DNA from: a bacterium
GTDB lineage: Bacteria; Caldisericota; Caldisericia; UBA6126
Length of the DNA: 36,191 nt
Direction of reading: 5' to 3'
Assembly (NCBI GenBank): GCA_021372585.1
Contig: JAJFUD010000088.1
Span: forward strand, 1-36,191
Below, piece after piece: positions 6,904-13,071 of the stretch (its first letter is position 1; every line of letters starts with the position of its first letter). A model generated the notes under the pieces. The model ran no database searches. It was not told the DNA's origin and was given only the letters and a program-made list of their open reading frames with translations. The position numbers and the translations under genes were made by a program.

Positions 6904-6971
6904 TTTTTACGCAATTTTTACGGATATACCCTTTTTTTTAACCAGTAATTTACATGACATAAGCATATAAT
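6904..6971 (+). promoter_or_regulatory. promoter with four-site operator for the trkH unit (element copy 1)
   Basis: TTTAC-type sites start at 6906 (TTTAC), 6917 (TTTAC), 6938 (TTAAC) and 6949 (TTTAC), and TATAAT starts at 6966. The pairs are 11 bp apart, one helical turn, as expected for tandem binding by OmpR/PhoB-family regulators. The last site lies where a -35 box would be, and no good -35 is present, which suggests activator-dependent transcription. The same offsets (0, 11, 32, 43, and -10 at 60) recur at 9227-9292. KdpE, encoded downstream, is the natural candidate regulator. Confidence 0.65.
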
Positions 6972-7047
6972 GCTTCGTTATGATATTGACAGACAGCGTA
7001 AATAGTATGAAAAGTAAGGTTATAAAACGGTTTAGAAGGGGTCAGAG

Positions 7048-7161
7048 ATGAAGCATTTCTTTCAAGTTACAGTATCCATTATGACCGAAATGGGTTTCTG
7101 GGTCATCTATCTGGCAATACTACTATGCCTGTTGTTTATTTTGAGGTTGTTATTGGTATGA
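7048..7161 (+). CDS. 37-residue membrane microprotein preceding TrkH (KdpF-like position)
   Basis: This small ORF encodes a short amphipathic start (M-K-H-F-F-Q-V-T-V-S-I-M-T-E-M-G) followed by one hydrophobic helix (about residues 17-37: F-W-V-I-Y-L-A-I-L-L-C-L-L-F-I-L-R-L-L-L-V). An AAGGGG ribosome-binding site sits 6 nt before the ATG, and the promoter -10 lies about 75 bp upstream. Its TGA overlaps the most plausible trkH ATG as ATGA (7158-7161), so the two are probably translationally coupled. KdpF, a roughly 30-residue single-helix peptide, stabilises the KdpFABC K+ pump. By position and form this peptide could do the same for TrkH, but no sequence homology is claimed. It is too short for most gene finders. 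Confidence 0.6.
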   Translation: MKHFFQVTVSIMTEMGFWVIYLAILLCLLFILRLLLV

Positions 7162-8666
7162 TTCCAGAAATTCGATCTGAGGACTGGTCGACAATATTTC
7201 ATTTTTCCGGATCAGTCTTTAGTTTTTTAGGCGCAACGCTTCTTATTCCTTTAATGGTAGCTCTATTTGCTTCAGAATGGCGCAGTGCTGTGAATTTTTT
7301 CTTTACCTTTGCTCTGTTGCTTTCATTGGGGACTTTTTTATACACTCGCTTCCGTCCAATAAGAGAGGCAAATTGGCTACATGGCATGTGTATTAGCGCT
7401 TTTTCCTGGATTGTCTCGATGTTTATTCTTGCATTACCTTATTATTTTAGTCAGCACTTTCTTTCGTATACCGATGCCTGCTTTGATGTGATGAGCGGTA
7501 TGACGACGACAGGTTTGGTTTTGATTCAGGACATAGACCACTTGCCTATCTCTTTGAATATCTGGAGACATATGCTCACCTTTATCGGGGGGCAGGGAAT
7601 CATCATCATCGCAGTCGCTTTCATTCCGTCTATCGGTTTGAATTTCAAAGCGATGGTGGGGGAAGGGAAAGAGGAGAGATTGTTGCCGAATGTAAAACAG
7701 ACCGGACGCTATATTTGGATAATCAGCCTGCTGTATTTAGTGGTTGGAACGGTGATTCTATTTATCATCGGATTAATAATCGGATTTACCCCCGGTTGGT
7801 CTTTATTTCATGCTGTTTCCATGTTTATGTCTACCTGGAGTACGGGTGGGTTTGCTCCACAATCATTGAATGCACTGTATTATCATAACCTTCCTTATGA
7901 AATTGCAATGACGATCTTTTCAATCGTGGGATCCATGAATTTTGGTTTGCATTATTATGTCTGGTACAAGAAACGCAAGGCGTTGATTGAAGACATTGAA
8001 ACCAAGTCCTTTCTGATAACTCTTACTGTGCTGTTTTTAGTGATGGCAACCTACTTAATGCGGCAGGGAATCTATCCTAACCTGATAGCCTTGTTCCGAA
8101 AACTTGTGTTTAATCTCATTTCAGGCCATACAACCACCGGTACGCAGACTATATATTCAGTTCAGTTTATCAATTTGTGGTCCCCGATGGTTTTAATCGG
8201 CATCATTATCGCGATGGCAATCGGTGGGTCCAGCGCTTCCACTGCGGGTGGTTTTAAAGGCATCAGAATGGGTATACTTTTCCATTCGATCGTTCAGGAT
8301 ATCAAACAGTATTTTATGCCTTCGACAAGTGTCAACGTCCCTTTCTTTCAACATATCGGTAAGCAGATTTTATCTGATAAGATCATTAAATCCGCCATGA
8401 CGGTTGTGTTGTTTTATATCTTTTTCTACACTTTTGGTGCCGTACTTGGTGTTGCTTATGGTTATCCAGTCAACCAAGCGATTTTTGATTCGGTGTCTGC
8501 CGGATCGAACACAGGTTTAAGTGCAGGTTTGGTAAGTGTGTCGATGCCTTTTGTCATGAAAGTGTATTATATTCTCTCTATGTTCTTAGGCAGAGTTGAA
8601 TTCTTTTCTGGTTTAGTGTTGATGACATTTATTTATCGGTATGTATTACAGTTGGTGAAAAGATGA
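7158..8666 (+). CDS. trkH: TrkH/KtrB-family potassium uptake channel subunit
   Basis: This 502-residue polytopic membrane protein has the four pore-loop repeats of the TrkH/KtrB superfamily. Selectivity-filter glycines occur in M-T-T-T-G-L (about residue 114), S-T-G-G-F (about 227), H-T-T-T-G-T (about 323) and S-N-T-G-L-S (about 450). The subunit carries K+ (or Na+-coupled K+) uptake, normally gated by a cytoplasmic RCK protein (TrkA/KtrA) that is not encoded in this window. I place the start at ATG 7158 because it overlaps the stop of the upstream microprotein. A longer in-frame start at 7125 lies within that microprotein and lacks its own ribosome-binding site. It overlaps the next gene as ATGA (8663-8666). 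The linked kdpDE genes support a role in regulated K+ uptake. Confidence 0.92.
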   Translation: MIPEIRSEDWSTIFHFSGSVFSFLGATLLIPLMVALFASEWRSAVNFFFTFALLLSLGTFLYTRFRPIREANWLHGMCISAFSWIVSMFILALPYYFSQHFLSYTDACFDVMSGMTTTGLVLIQDIDHLPISLNIWRHMLTFIGGQGIIIIAVAFIPSIGLNFKAMVGEGKEERLLPNVKQTGRYIWIISLLYLVVGTVILFIIGLIIGFTPGWSLFHAVSMFMSTWSTGGFAPQSLNALYYHNLPYEIAMTIFSIVGSMNFGLHYYVWYKKRKALIEDIETKSFLITLTVLFLVMATYLMRQGIYPNLIALFRKLVFNLISGHTTTGTQTIYSVQFINLWSPMVLIGIIIAMAIGGSSASTAGGFKGIRMGILFHSIVQDIKQYFMPSTSVNVPFFQHIGKQILSDKIIKSAMTVVLFYIFFYTFGAVLGVAYGYPVNQAIFDSVSAGSNTGLSAGLVSVSMPFVMKVYYILSMFLGRVEFFSGLVLMTFIYRYVLQLVKR

Positions 8667-9205
8667 AAGCCTCTATTCTCTTTTTCTGTCTTATCTTTGT
8701 TTTTGTATTGACACTGAAACCTGTATTTTCAACCACTGAATCCCAGATTAATCCAAACAAGAAGCCTCTTGTCATCAGCGAATTGTTACAAAACCATTCT
8801 TATTGGGATCAACGAGTGATTAGTCTTACCGGAGAAGTGATCGGTCAACCGCTCTTTGCGCAGGATCTGGCTTGTATCCATCTTCTGGATCAAGAGGGCA
8901 ACGCTATCGGTGTTTGGATGGAAAAAGTGTATTTATCCCAAATTAGCTATTATGGTAGGTATCGGATAAAAGGTGATATGGTGAATGTAGAGGGTACTTT
9001 TAACCTGATTTGTTCTTCTCATTCGGGGGATACGGATATACATGCGAGCAAAATCACTATTATTCAGCAAGGGAAGGTAGTTTCATCGGATAAACCGGTC
9101 TGGAGCCTTTTCATAATTGGATGGATTTTGTTACTCTATCCGGGAGCATTAGTTTTGTCTAATCAGATTAAGAAAAATAAACTGCGTAAGCAATCAAGCA
9201 AATAA
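8663..9205 (+). CDS. membrane-anchored extracytoplasmic OB-fold-like protein coupled to TrkH
   Basis: This 180-residue protein has an N-terminal signal or anchor helix (about residues 4-23) and a C-terminal transmembrane helix (about 146-166) followed by a basic tail. The middle (about 50-135) reads like an OB-fold of the tRNA_anti-like type: V-I-S-L-T-G-E-V-I-G, then H-L-L-D-Q-E-G-N-A-I-G-V-W, then Y-R-I-K-G-D-M-V-N-V-E-G-T-F. That places the OB domain outside the cytoplasmic membrane. The start overlaps trkH by 4 bp, so its dose is tied to the channel. The function is unknown. It could be an accessory subunit or an envelope sensor. The gene is followed by a second regulated promoter. Confidence 0.6.
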   Translation: MKASILFFCLIFVFVLTLKPVFSTTESQINPNKKPLVISELLQNHSYWDQRVISLTGEVIGQPLFAQDLACIHLLDQEGNAIGVWMEKVYLSQISYYGRYRIKGDMVNVEGTFNLICSSHSGDTDIHASKITIIQQGKVVSSDKPVWSLFIIGWILLLYPGALVLSNQIKKNKLRKQSSK

Positions 9206-9224
9206 AATAACAATACCATAAGAA

Positions 9225-9292
9225 TATTTACGAAATATTTACTGTATTGAAACTTTTTTTAACCAGCAATTTACAGGATAAATCCCTATAAT
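9225..9292 (+). promoter_or_regulatory. promoter with four-site operator for the zinc-ribbon/kdpDE unit (element copy 2)
   Basis: TTTAC-type sites start at 9227 (TTTAC), 9238 (TTTAC), 9259 (TTAAC) and 9270 (TTTAC), and TATAAT starts at 9287. Spacing is identical to the copy at 6906-6971. The long shared string from the T-run through AACCAG(C/T)AATTTACA, plus a shared TATAATGC, rules out simple AT-rich coincidence. A leader of about 30 nt leads to the ATG at 9331. Confidence 0.65.
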
Positions 9293-9330: not shown

Positions 9331-9564
9331 ATGAGACAAGAGGCGGCTGGTAAGATTTTAACAAAAAGGTGTCAGTATTGTGATGAGTGGTTGGAGGAGG
9401 ATGCTCCTTATTGTCTTAATTGCGGACGGTCCTTTTTGATTGATTCAAGCAATCCTTATCTGGATTTTTTGCATTTTCTATTTTATCTCTCGCTATTTCT
9501 GCTTCTGTTGATTCTTCTCTTTGTTTGGCTGAAACAATGCCCTGATTCACATTTTATGAGATAA
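9331..9564 (+). CDS. zinc-ribbon single-pass membrane peptide
   Basis: This 77-residue protein has a two-knuckle zinc ribbon at residues 14-33 (C-Q-Y-C and C-L-N-C-G-R), like the zinc-ribbon domain often seen at the N-terminus of bacterial membrane or regulatory proteins. A strongly hydrophobic helix follows (about residues 47-68). A GAGAAGGA ribosome-binding site precedes the ATG. It lies between the regulated promoter and kdpD, so it may be expressed under K+ control. The cytoplasmic ribbon could mediate protein contacts near the sensor or channel, but that is inference. Confidence 0.6.
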   Translation: MRQEAAGKILTKRCQYCDEWLEEDAPYCLNCGRSFLIDSSNPYLDFLHFLFYLSLFLLLLILLFVWLKQCPDSHFMR

Positions 9565-9650: not shown

Positions 9651-12290
9651 TTGAACGATATCACGGAAAAACCGGAAGACTTTTTAAATGAGCCAAAAGG
9701 CATACTAACCATTTTTATTGGTGCTACCGCTGGTGTTGGTAAAACTTTTGCTATGTTGGAAACAGCCCAGGAAAAATTATCCGAAAACAAAGAAGTCGTG
9801 ATTGGCTGGTTGGATAGCCATGGCAGAAAAGAGATCGAATCGGTTGCAGAAGGCATTCCAGTGATTGAGCCAATGAGCATAAAATATCTTGAGAATGAAT
9901 ACAAAACGCTTGATTTGGATAGAATTCTGAAGGAAAAACCGGACATTGTTGTGATTGATGAGTTGGCTTATTCCAATATTCCAGGTTTGAGAAATAAAAA
10001 AAGGTATCAAGATGTAGAGGAATGTTTAAAGCATGGGATAGATGTGTATACTACCTTGAATATTCATCAATTGGAAAGCTTGAATGATATAGTCACTGAA
10101 ATTACTGAAACCCAGGTTCAAGAAACAGTACCTGATCATTTCTTGAATGATGCGCAGATCCAACTGGTGGATATCGATCCGGACACATTGATTCAGAGAC
10201 TCCATGATGGGAAAGTTTTTACGCCTGATTTATCACAAGAAACCATACGCCATATTTTCCGACCGGGAAATATTAATGCACTTCGGGAAATAACCCTTCG
10301 ATATGCAGCTAAACAAGTCGACAAAGAGATGAGTTCATATAGAAATACCCATTCGATCGAGGAAACCTGGAGAACTGGCGAAAAGGTACTCGTTTATATT
10401 GATTCTTATGCTTACTCGATTCATTTATTACGAACTGCAAAAAACTTGGCAGACAGCTTAAAAGGAGACTTAATCGTCGCTTTACGTCAACCTCCTTCCT
10501 ATATTCTCAGTGAAAAAATGAAAACAGTCATCTCGAAAGCGAATCAGGTCGCTGAAGAATTGGGAGCTGAGATTATCACAGTTTCTTCCGATAAAATTCT
10601 GGATTCATTGGTTCAAATCATCAAAAGAAAGAACATTACCCAATTGGTGATCGGAAAATATCGTAACCGATTCAGATGGTTATCTTTTTTTAAAGAGCCT
10701 TTTGAAAACTCATTAATTAATAATTTAAACAGCACAAGAGTCCATTTAATTCCGTTTAAAAAAGAAGAGAGCGAACAATCGTTCTTTCATTTTAGATTCA
10801 TCAATTCGATTCATCTGATCCCATTGTTGTCTCATATTCTATTAGTGGTTATCCTGACCATCATCTGCAAAATCTTTGTTGAAGACCTTGGATTAATAAA
10901 TATATCTACCTTATTTGTCATCCCGTTGCTCCTGTCTTCTTTATGGGGGTATCAGAATTCGATTATTGTCACAGTTGTTAGTATTCTGTTATACGATTTT
11001 TTCTTTATTGCTCCGCATAACACCTTTATTATTAGTGATTCCCGGTATTTAATTAGTTTGTTTATATTTCTGTTTATCGCCTTTATATCAGGCTACATTT
11101 CTATTCTTTTCCAAAAAAAGGCTGATTTAGTGGAAGAGAACCACTTCCAGATCAATTCCCTGTTTTCTTTAAGCAAAGACATTGCGTTGGATAACAATAT
11201 TGATTCGGTCTTAAAAAAGATTATTTTTGAGATAGCTGAATTCACGGAAGCAAAGGTGGCGATATTGTTACCAGATGCAACTAACCATCTCATCATTCAG
11301 GGATCAAATGATGAAAAGCTTCGTCTTGAAATAGAAAAAAAAGAAATAGCTGTAGCCACGTGGACTTATCAAAACAAGCAAATGGCAGGAAAGGGAACCA
11401 ATACTCTTGGCAACTCATCCAATTTATTTTTCCCCATTATATCTACTGATAATATTTTTGGCGTATTTGCTATCAGCGTTTCATGGGATACTTTTAAAAA
11501 AGACCCTATAATGAAACGATACCTGGAAGCGATTTCGCATCTGACAGCTATTGCTATTCACCGACATCAACTCACAGAAAAAGAAAGCGAGAGCATAGCA
11601 ATGGTCGAATCACAAAAATTGCAGAAAGCTTTGTTTGATTCGATATCCCATGATCTGAACACACCTCTCACCTCGATAATTGGCGCCTCCGGCAGCTTGT
11701 TGGATGAGGGCGATCTTTACTCGAAAAAGGACAGAAAAGAGCTTTTGTTATCCATACAACAAGATGCGAACGACATGCACCGATTGGTTCAAAATTTATT
11801 GGATATGGCACATCTGGATAACCGCGTCATTCAGATAAAAAAAGAGTATGCCGATATGGCCGACATTGTGGATTTCTGTATTAGAAAGATGAAGCATCTC
11901 GGTAGGCGACAGATTGTTCGGTTGATAGATGATACTTTGCCCTCTATTCAGGTAGATACAGCTTTGATAGAACAAGTGATCACCAACCTGTTGGATAATG
12001 CTATCAAATATTCTCCTGAAGATTCCAGGATTGTGATTAAAGCCTATCTAGAGCATGATAGATTATTCTTTTCCATGGAAGATGAGGGAATTGGGATTCC
12101 TCCTGAAGATGTCGATTTAGTTTTTACAAAATTCTATCGATCGAATCAGGCAAAAACCAAAAGAGGCTCCGGTTTAGGACTTTCCATATGCAAAGGGATC
12201 GTGGAAGCCCATGGTGGCAAGATTTGGGTGATTAGGGGACGCTCAAAAGGAACTTGTATAGTCTTCTACATCCCTTATAACAGAAGGTGA
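9651..12290 (+). CDS. kdpD: KdpD-type osmosensitive K+ sensor histidine kinase
   Basis: This protein has 879 residues from a TTG start, close to the family's roughly 890. Domain order: N-terminal KdpD domain with the Walker-like G-A-T-A-G-V-G-K-T (residues 24-32) and V-V-I-D-E-L-A-Y; a universal-stress-like domain (about 255-385); four transmembrane helices of the DUF4118 type (about 405-510); a GAF-like domain (about 530-650); HisKA with phospho-acceptor His667 in S-I-S-H-D-L-N-T-P-L-T; and HATPase with N-L-L-D-N-A-I-K-Y-S and G-S-G-L-G-L-S. I prefer TTG 9651 over an upstream in-frame TTG (9582) because AAGGGGA lies just before it and the residues after it fit the family N-terminus. It phosphorylates KdpE under K+ limitation or osmotic upshift. 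It is followed 9 bp later by kdpE. Confidence 0.93.
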   Translation: MNDITEKPEDFLNEPKGILTIFIGATAGVGKTFAMLETAQEKLSENKEVVIGWLDSHGRKEIESVAEGIPVIEPMSIKYLENEYKTLDLDRILKEKPDIVVIDELAYSNIPGLRNKKRYQDVEECLKHGIDVYTTLNIHQLESLNDIVTEITETQVQETVPDHFLNDAQIQLVDIDPDTLIQRLHDGKVFTPDLSQETIRHIFRPGNINALREITLRYAAKQVDKEMSSYRNTHSIEETWRTGEKVLVYIDSYAYSIHLLRTAKNLADSLKGDLIVALRQPPSYILSEKMKTVISKANQVAEELGAEIITVSSDKILDSLVQIIKRKNITQLVIGKYRNRFRWLSFFKEPFENSLINNLNSTRVHLIPFKKEESEQSFFHFRFINSIHLIPLLSHILLVVILTIICKIFVEDLGLINISTLFVIPLLLSSLWGYQNSIIVTVVSILLYDFFFIAPHNTFIISDSRYLISLFIFLFIAFISGYISILFQKKADLVEENHFQINSLFSLSKDIALDNNIDSVLKKIIFEIAEFTEAKVAILLPDATNHLIIQGSNDEKLRLEIEKKEIAVATWTYQNKQMAGKGTNTLGNSSNLFFPIISTDNIFGVFAISVSWDTFKKDPIMKRYLEAISHLTAIAIHRHQLTEKESESIAMVESQKLQKALFDSISHDLNTPLTSIIGASGSLLDEGDLYSKKDRKELLLSIQQDANDMHRLVQNLLDMAHLDNRVIQIKKEYADMADIVDFCIRKMKHLGRRQIVRLIDDTLPSIQVDTALIEQVITNLLDNAIKYSPEDSRIVIKAYLEHDRLFFSMEDEGIGIPPEDVDLVFTKFYRSNQAKTKRGSGLGLSICKGIVEAHGGKIWVIRGRSKGTCIVFYIPYNRR

Positions 12291-12299
12291 GGAGGGTAG

Positions 12300-12983
12300 A
12301 TGGAAAATAAAAAGACGAGAATTCTGGTGATTGATGATGAGCCTCAAATTCGAAAACTACTCTCTATTGCATTAAATGCTCATGATTTTCACATAGAAAC
12401 AGCAGAGAACGGGATGCTGGGAATACAAGCTGTTGCCTGTTTTAAACCTGACCTGGTGTTGTTGGATTTGAGCTTACCGGATATAGATGGAGTCGATGTA
12501 ATAAAAAGAATTAGGGAGTGGTCTCAGGTTCCGATACTGATTTTATCCGTTCGCAGCAGCGATGAAGATAAAGTTGAAGCTTTAGATGCCGGTGCTGATG
12601 ATTATTTGATAAAACCATTTAGCATGAATGAACTTTTTGCCAGGATTCGTGCTGCCCTTCGACATATCGCTAAGACCTATGACGATTCAGTTCTGGAATG
12701 CAATGGTATCAAAATGGATTTCTTAAAAAGACAGGTTTTTGTTGAAAACCTTGAAGTAAAGCTGACTCCTACAGAATATGAAATTTTGAAAACCCTTTTG
12801 ATGAATTTTGAAAAGGTAGTCACACAGAAACAACTATTACAGACCGTATGGGGTTCTTCCTATCATCTGGAAACTCATTATCTGAGGATTTATCTACGAA
12901 AACTTCGTAAGAAGATTGAAGAGGATCCATCCAATCCAAAACATCTGATCACAGAATCCGGTATCGGTTATCGGTTGATTTAA
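12300..12983 (+). CDS. kdpE: KdpE-type OmpR-family response regulator
   Basis: This 227-residue protein has a receiver domain with Asp12/Asp13, phospho-acceptor Asp56 in L-L-D-L-S-L-P-D, and the conserved Lys in L-I-K-P-F. A C-terminal winged-helix (trans_reg_C) domain follows, with L-T-P-T-E-Y-E-I-L and the L-R-I-Y-L-R-K-L-R-K-K-I-E recognition region. It is the cognate regulator of the adjacent KdpD; GGAGGG precedes the ATG. OmpR-family regulators bind tandem direct repeats at about 11-bp period, matching the sites at 6906-6953 and 9227-9274. It is probably both the activator of the trkH unit and an autoregulator. A strong hairpin ends the unit at 13033-13071. Confidence 0.92.
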   Translation: MENKKTRILVIDDEPQIRKLLSIALNAHDFHIETAENGMLGIQAVACFKPDLVLLDLSLPDIDGVDVIKRIREWSQVPILILSVRSSDEDKVEALDAGADDYLIKPFSMNELFARIRAALRHIAKTYDDSVLECNGIKMDFLKRQVFVENLEVKLTPTEYEILKTLLMNFEKVVTQKQLLQTVWGSSYHLETHYLRIYLRKLRKKIEEDPSNPKHLITESGIGYRLI

Positions 12984-13032: not shown

Positions 13033-13071
13033 AAAAAAAATAAATTGGGACTGTCCCAATTTATTTTTTTT
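13033..13071. terminator. strong bidirectional terminator after kdpE
   Basis: A perfect 18-bp stem (13033-13050 with 13054-13071) with a 3-nt loop carries A8 on one side and T8 on the other. It ends the potassium module and insulates the next plus-strand gene. Confidence 0.9.

Follow-up and report, generated by a model that had tools for sequence, protein, structure and literature searches.

Trk is usually described as a constitutive system and Kdp as an inducible pump (PMC3610689). In E. coli, KdpE recognizes the site TTTATA-N5-TTTACA, which consists of two half-sites with an 11-bp step and has a footprint from -72 to -50; R193, R200, and T215 of E. coli KdpE matter for DNA binding, as shown by mutation (PMC3264566). 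In this study, we analyzed a 36,191-nucleotide stretch of DNA (the window) from a 1.88-Mb, 97.7%-complete Caldisericota genome, in which a trkH unit is followed by a unit containing kdpD and kdpE. KdpA was not found in this genome, and the canonical arrangement of kdpFABC under KdpDE was therefore not found.

Proposed operators at the trkH and kdpDE promoters

A preliminary description of this DNA had proposed that the promoters of the two units share a four-site operator with identical geometry. On re-reading of the sequence, the coordinates it had given for all eight half-sites and both TATAAT boxes were correct, and the shared geometry was confirmed: the half-sites lie at offsets of 0, 11, 32, and 43 and TATAAT lies at 60 in both promoters. 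The elements are as follows.

6906..6922, + strand: distal KdpE-type pair of the trkH promoter, TTTACG-N5-TTTACG (half-sites 6906-6911 and 6917-6922); from sequence, invariant in the sister species, with the E. coli spacing
6938..6954, + strand: proximal KdpE-type pair of the trkH promoter, TTAACC-N5-TTTACA (half-sites 6938-6943 and 6949-6954); from sequence, invariant in the sister species
6966..6971, + strand: -10 box (TATAAT) for trkH, beginning 17 bp after the first base of the fourth half-site; unchanged in the sister species
9227..9243, + strand: distal KdpE-type pair of the kdpDE promoter, TTTACG-N5-TTTACT (half-sites 9227-9232 and 9238-9243); from sequence, invariant in the sister species
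9259..9275, + strand: proximal KdpE-type pair of the kdpDE promoter, TTAACC-N5-TTTACA (half-sites 9259-9264 and 9270-9275); from sequence, invariant in the sister species
9287..9292, + strand: -10 box (TATAAT) for kdpDE; from sequence

When the last T of TATAAT was taken as -7, the distal pair was predicted to span -72 to -56, the proximal pair -40 to -24, and the fourth half-site about -29 to -24. The first half-site lies 60 bp upstream of the -10 box in the window (predicted at about -72), and 59 bp upstream in E. coli. In the trkH promoter, the proximal pair follows the distal pair by 32 bp and straddles the -35 position. Both promoters have a perfect TATAAT and no -35 box, which suggests that they are activator-dependent. 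The earlier proposal that the last site replaces the -35 box was not upheld, since only 11 bp separate the fourth half-site from the -10 box and this half-site would lie downstream of -35, the position straddled by the proximal pair. The segment TATACCCTTTTTTTT (~6924-6938) was also considered as an E. coli-like S1 and was rejected because it is changed in the sister species. No RNA element was detected in the window with Rfam.

The two operators differ from each other at 1 of the 30 positions in the half-sites and -10 boxes and at 17 of the 36 other positions, and their likeness extends past the half-sites (TTTTTTTAACCAG). The two may have arisen by duplication of a single promoter, in which case they would not be independent. 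Conservation was then assessed against one genome of the same genus (G001), the sister species, in which both operators were present at matching positions with respect to the genes. In each promoter, none of the 30 positions in the half-sites and -10 box had changed, compared with 7 of 36 elsewhere in the same 66 bp, and the DNA between the pairs had drifted in sequence while its length remained fixed. The well-conserved block of the trkH promoter starts at the first half-site, and the alignment is poor further upstream. By sequence comparison, these results indicate that the conservation pattern is the footprint of a bound element.

We scanned the whole 1.88-Mb genome for TTTAC-N6-TTTAC-N16-TTAAC-N6-TTTAC, the four-site part of a search pattern suggested in the preliminary description. 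Two matches were obtained, before the trkH and kdpDE units only, with no copies at unrelated genes, and the reversed-pattern control of the four-site motif gave none genome-wide. The relaxed pattern TTWAC-N6-TTTAC-N12-TATAAT, covering the proximal pair and the -10 box, was also free of mismatches only at these two promoters, and its matches with 2 mismatches were at or below the control level. The operator was not found at the second trkH of the genome (contig C56), at its two TrkA-type genes (C86, C2), or at trkH of the other Caldisericota families examined. The detectable regulon, as read from the sequence, is therefore the trkH and kdpDE promoters only. This narrows the TrkH regulon proposed earlier: the two promoters belong to it by their operators, but the second trkH and the TrkA-type genes do not. 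As judged by position only, the operator would target K+ uptake genes.

The same geometry at kdp promoters of other bacteria

kdpA loci were sampled from KdpE-bearing genomes, and paired 11-bp repeats upstream of kdpA were scored at all 47 pair-to-pair distances. The distance of 32 bp had been set beforehand by the window, and 33 bp was added after the result for Paenibacillus. A distance of 32/33 bp was the best in 18.5 of 34 upstream regions, against 1.4 expected if all distances were equal. In the non-redundant set, in which near-identical Paenibacillus were collapsed, it was the best in 12.5 of 28 (1.2 expected). None of the coding-sequence controls from the same kdpA loci had 32/33 bp as the best distance. 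Clear cases were found in Bacillota, including Paenibacillus and others (L165, L166-L169, L171, L179), Bacteroidota (L163, L164, L203), Ignavibacteriales (L173), and Acidobacteriales (L207). Among Pseudomonadota, E. coli (L129) was a further clear case, with weaker ones in L162 and L170. Weak 32/33-bp matches near the null (L195, L197, L198, L206) were left out of the examples.

In E. coli, the footprinted pair is followed at 32 bp by a degenerate second pair, TTTGCG-N5-TTTGCA, of which no description was found in the open-access papers searched. The first E. coli half-site was placed at about -71, which fits the published footprint. Both pairs are near consensus in the kdp promoters of Bacillota and Bacteroidota. 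In most cases examined, the -10 element starts 16-17 bp after the beginning of the fourth half-site. The element at this place is of the sigma-70 type, except in Bacteroidota, where it reads TAnnTTTG, which we take to be the known -7 motif of that group. The architecture was missing from several KdpE-bearing genomes (e.g. L174-L176, L178, L205), and the KdpE motif of M. smegmatis differs (PMC5401905). Together, the four-half-site layout looks like an old and widespread, though not universal, KdpE promoter architecture, and the window operator looks like this layout with a well-preserved proximal pair.

We consider it probable from these comparisons that the KdpE operator generally comprises four half-sites for two dimers, with a pair spacing of 32-33 bp and a fixed distance to the -10 element, in at least six phyla, and that the Caldisericota lineage studied here has come to have the complete element upstream of both trkH and kdpDE, so that TrkH serves as the inducible transporter in a Kdp-type circuit. 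Where kdpFABC is absent from a genome, this geometry would serve as a signature with which KdpE targets could be searched for; for E. coli, the prediction is an additional, promoter-proximal site for KdpE. A trkH-kdpD-kdpE locus was also found in a Spirochaetota MAG (L071), where the DNA before trkH has half-sites at offsets of 0, 11, and 32. This single genome suggests that the pairing of trkH with kdpDE arose more than once.

Other features were observed at the sampled kdpA loci. In Paenibacillus (L166 1-82), the operator lies ~790 bp upstream of kdpA and a c-di-AMP riboswitch is present in the same kdp locus, so that two K+-related controls may be stacked there. In L195, L198, L206, and L208, for example in Acidobacteriota, the best distance upstream of kdpA was 20-22 bp, which may point to a variant KdpE operator with contiguous repeats.

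Genes of the two units

The genes of the trkH unit and the kdpDE unit are as follows.

7048..7161, + strand: single-span membrane peptide of 37 aa, encoded at the head of the trkH unit (translation); overlaps the trkH start and is conserved in the sister species
7158..8666, + strand: TrkH potassium transporter (Pfam TrkH, 5.5e-36; TIGR00933, 2.1e-61, below the cut-off of that model)
8663..9205, + strand: 180-aa exported or membrane protein after trkH, with homologues beside trkH in relatives
9331..9564, + strand: protein of 77 aa encoded at the head of the kdpDE unit, with one membrane span and a zinc-ribbon-like motif of four cysteines (translation)
9651..12290, + strand: KdpD sensor kinase (Pfam KdpD, 5.9e-78), with KdpD N-terminal domain, DUF4118, GAF, HisKA, and HATPase
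12300..12983, + strand: KdpE response regulator, proposed binder of both operators (profile matches, tree, DNA-contact residues)

The window KdpE grouped with E. coli KdpE in the tree with a clade support of 100/97, apart from PhoB, and none of the other OmpR-family regulators of its own genome on the tree fell inside the KdpE clade. Its best NCBIfam match was KdpE at 248 bits, below the curated cut-off of 325 for that model. The equivalents of R193, R200, and T215 (E. coli numbering) are all kept in the alignment. The window half-sites and their 11-bp step equal those of E. coli KdpE, a TTTAYA-like direct repeat with a 5-bp spacer. Together with the recurrence of the geometry at kdpFABC elsewhere, the half-site, clade, and contact residues support in silico the earlier reading of a KdpE-type operator. 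Outside the genus, the nearest relatives of the window KdpE are KdpEs of Bacillota (~53% identity), whereas among regulators of its own class and phylum that are not KdpE the highest identity is ~40%, which suggests that KdpE was transferred into this genus.

The Pfam domains of KdpD (PF02702, PF13493, PF00512, PF02518) are complete, and kdpD is present as a single copy in the genome. Its reading frame is open from 9582, and the start is probably the TTG at 9651 behind AAAGGGG. After kdpE, an inverted repeat followed by a T-run (13041-13071, AAATTGGGACTGTCCCAATTTATTTTTTTT) looks by eye like an intrinsic terminator. The 77-aa zinc-ribbon-like protein is possibly an accessory sensor.

The 180-aa protein had no Pfam or NCBIfam match. 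Its homologues lie beside trkH across Caldisericota at 27-41% identity, and at 73% in the sister species. The other Caldisericota found have this TrkH unit, TrkH with the downstream protein, without adjacent kdpDE; the regulator therefore seems to have been added to a pre-existing transporter unit. The exported, membrane-anchored 180-aa protein may be a partner of TrkH. In the Caldisericota genomes examined, trkH is also preceded by a small single-span membrane peptide (~30-40 aa) that has a conserved Glu close to where the span begins, as in L130 (the second TrkH of the window's own genome), L132, L133, L134, L135, L136, and L138. The position of this peptide resembles that of KdpF before KdpA, and it may be an accessory microprotein of TrkH.

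Proposed mechanism and comparison with known systems

We consider it likely, at a probability of about 0.88, that the two elements are KdpE operators through which KdpDE activates the TrkH unit and its own genes under K+ limitation, replacing control of the Kdp pump. For this reading we infer that KdpE binds, that it activates and does not repress, and that K+ is the signal, with activation at low K+ taken from the family. Under K+ limitation, KdpD would phosphorylate KdpE, and KdpE-P would bind each operator as two tandem pairs at about -72 to -56 and about -40 to -24. With the pairs 32 bp apart, or about three turns of the helix, the two dimers would be bound to the same face of the DNA. The proximal pair, straddling the missing -35 box, would help RNA polymerase to start at TATAAT in the manner of PhoB at the pho box. 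The first transcript would encode the 37-aa membrane peptide, TrkH, and the 180-aa exported protein, and the second the 77-aa zinc-ribbon membrane protein and KdpDE. As kdpDE lies inside the second transcript, positive autoregulation would result. In the absence of kdpA from the genome, the KdpDE system would control a TrkH-type transporter instead of the Kdp pump; a Kdp sensor circuit thus seems to govern a TrkH transporter where KdpA is lacking.

It is improbable that a different regulator of the OmpR/PhoB family, for example a PhoB-like one, binds the operators. Besides KdpE, the genome encodes at least four OmpR-family regulators, and direct repeats of 11 bp characterize this family in general, but none of those placed on the tree lies inside the KdpE clade, the half-site is of the E. 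coli KdpE type, and one operator would drive kdpDE itself. The geometry also recurs at kdpFABC in genomes that were chosen by their KdpE. That A+T-rich promoter DNA produced the likeness by chance, or that one copy is a recent duplicate with no role in regulation, is highly implausible. The region is A+T-rich and the two copies are similar; nevertheless, the full five-element pattern is expected ~3e-8 times per genome in random DNA of the same composition, an expectation for a pattern picked after being seen, and reversed patterns gave no match. The independent evidence is the conservation, and the selective retention of the half-sites in a second species contradicts both versions of this explanation.

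Somewhat less remote, though still unlikely, is that KdpE mainly represses, or that only one pair is used, the second being either a remnant of promoter duplication or an element for a sigma factor. The E. coli footprint spans the distal pair only, the proximal pair there is degenerate (TTTGCG/TTTGCA), and a pair overlapping the -35 region could also seat a repressor. On the other hand, neither pair has changed between the two species while the intervening DNA has drifted without a change in length, the kdp promoters of Bacillota and Bacteroidota have two near-consensus pairs, and a perfect TATAAT without a -35 box is typical of activated promoters. Activation by KdpE, which would occupy the proximal pair as well, is the preferred reading.

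Among the systems compared, the Spirochaetota locus L071 is like the window in having trkH followed by a KdpD-like kinase and KdpE. Unlike in the window, its kinase has no N-terminal KdpD domain, its fourth half-site is poor, and no -10 element lies at offset 60. The pho box of PhoB has 11-bp direct repeats, of which the proximal one ends ~10-11 bp before the -10 element, and its -35 box is missing. The window operators share the 11-bp direct repeats and have a proximal pair straddling an absent -35 box, a position that the pho box straddles too, but the half-site is TTTACA rather than CTGTCAT, and the regulators belong to different clades. The kdpFABC promoters of Paenibacillus, Bacteroidota, and Ignavibacteriota likewise combine two 11-bp pairs at a spacing of 32-33 bp with a -10 element that starts 16-17 bp from the beginning of half-site four; those operators precede the Kdp pump, whereas the window genome has no KdpA. 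With the E. coli kdpFABC operator, the window operators share the 6-bp half-site, the 11-bp step, and a -10 distance of 59-60 bp; KdpE is the binder in E. coli and the proposed binder here. Unlike the single E. coli operator before kdpFABC, the window has two, in tandem units, with a proximal pair near consensus and with trkH and kdpDE as the putative targets.
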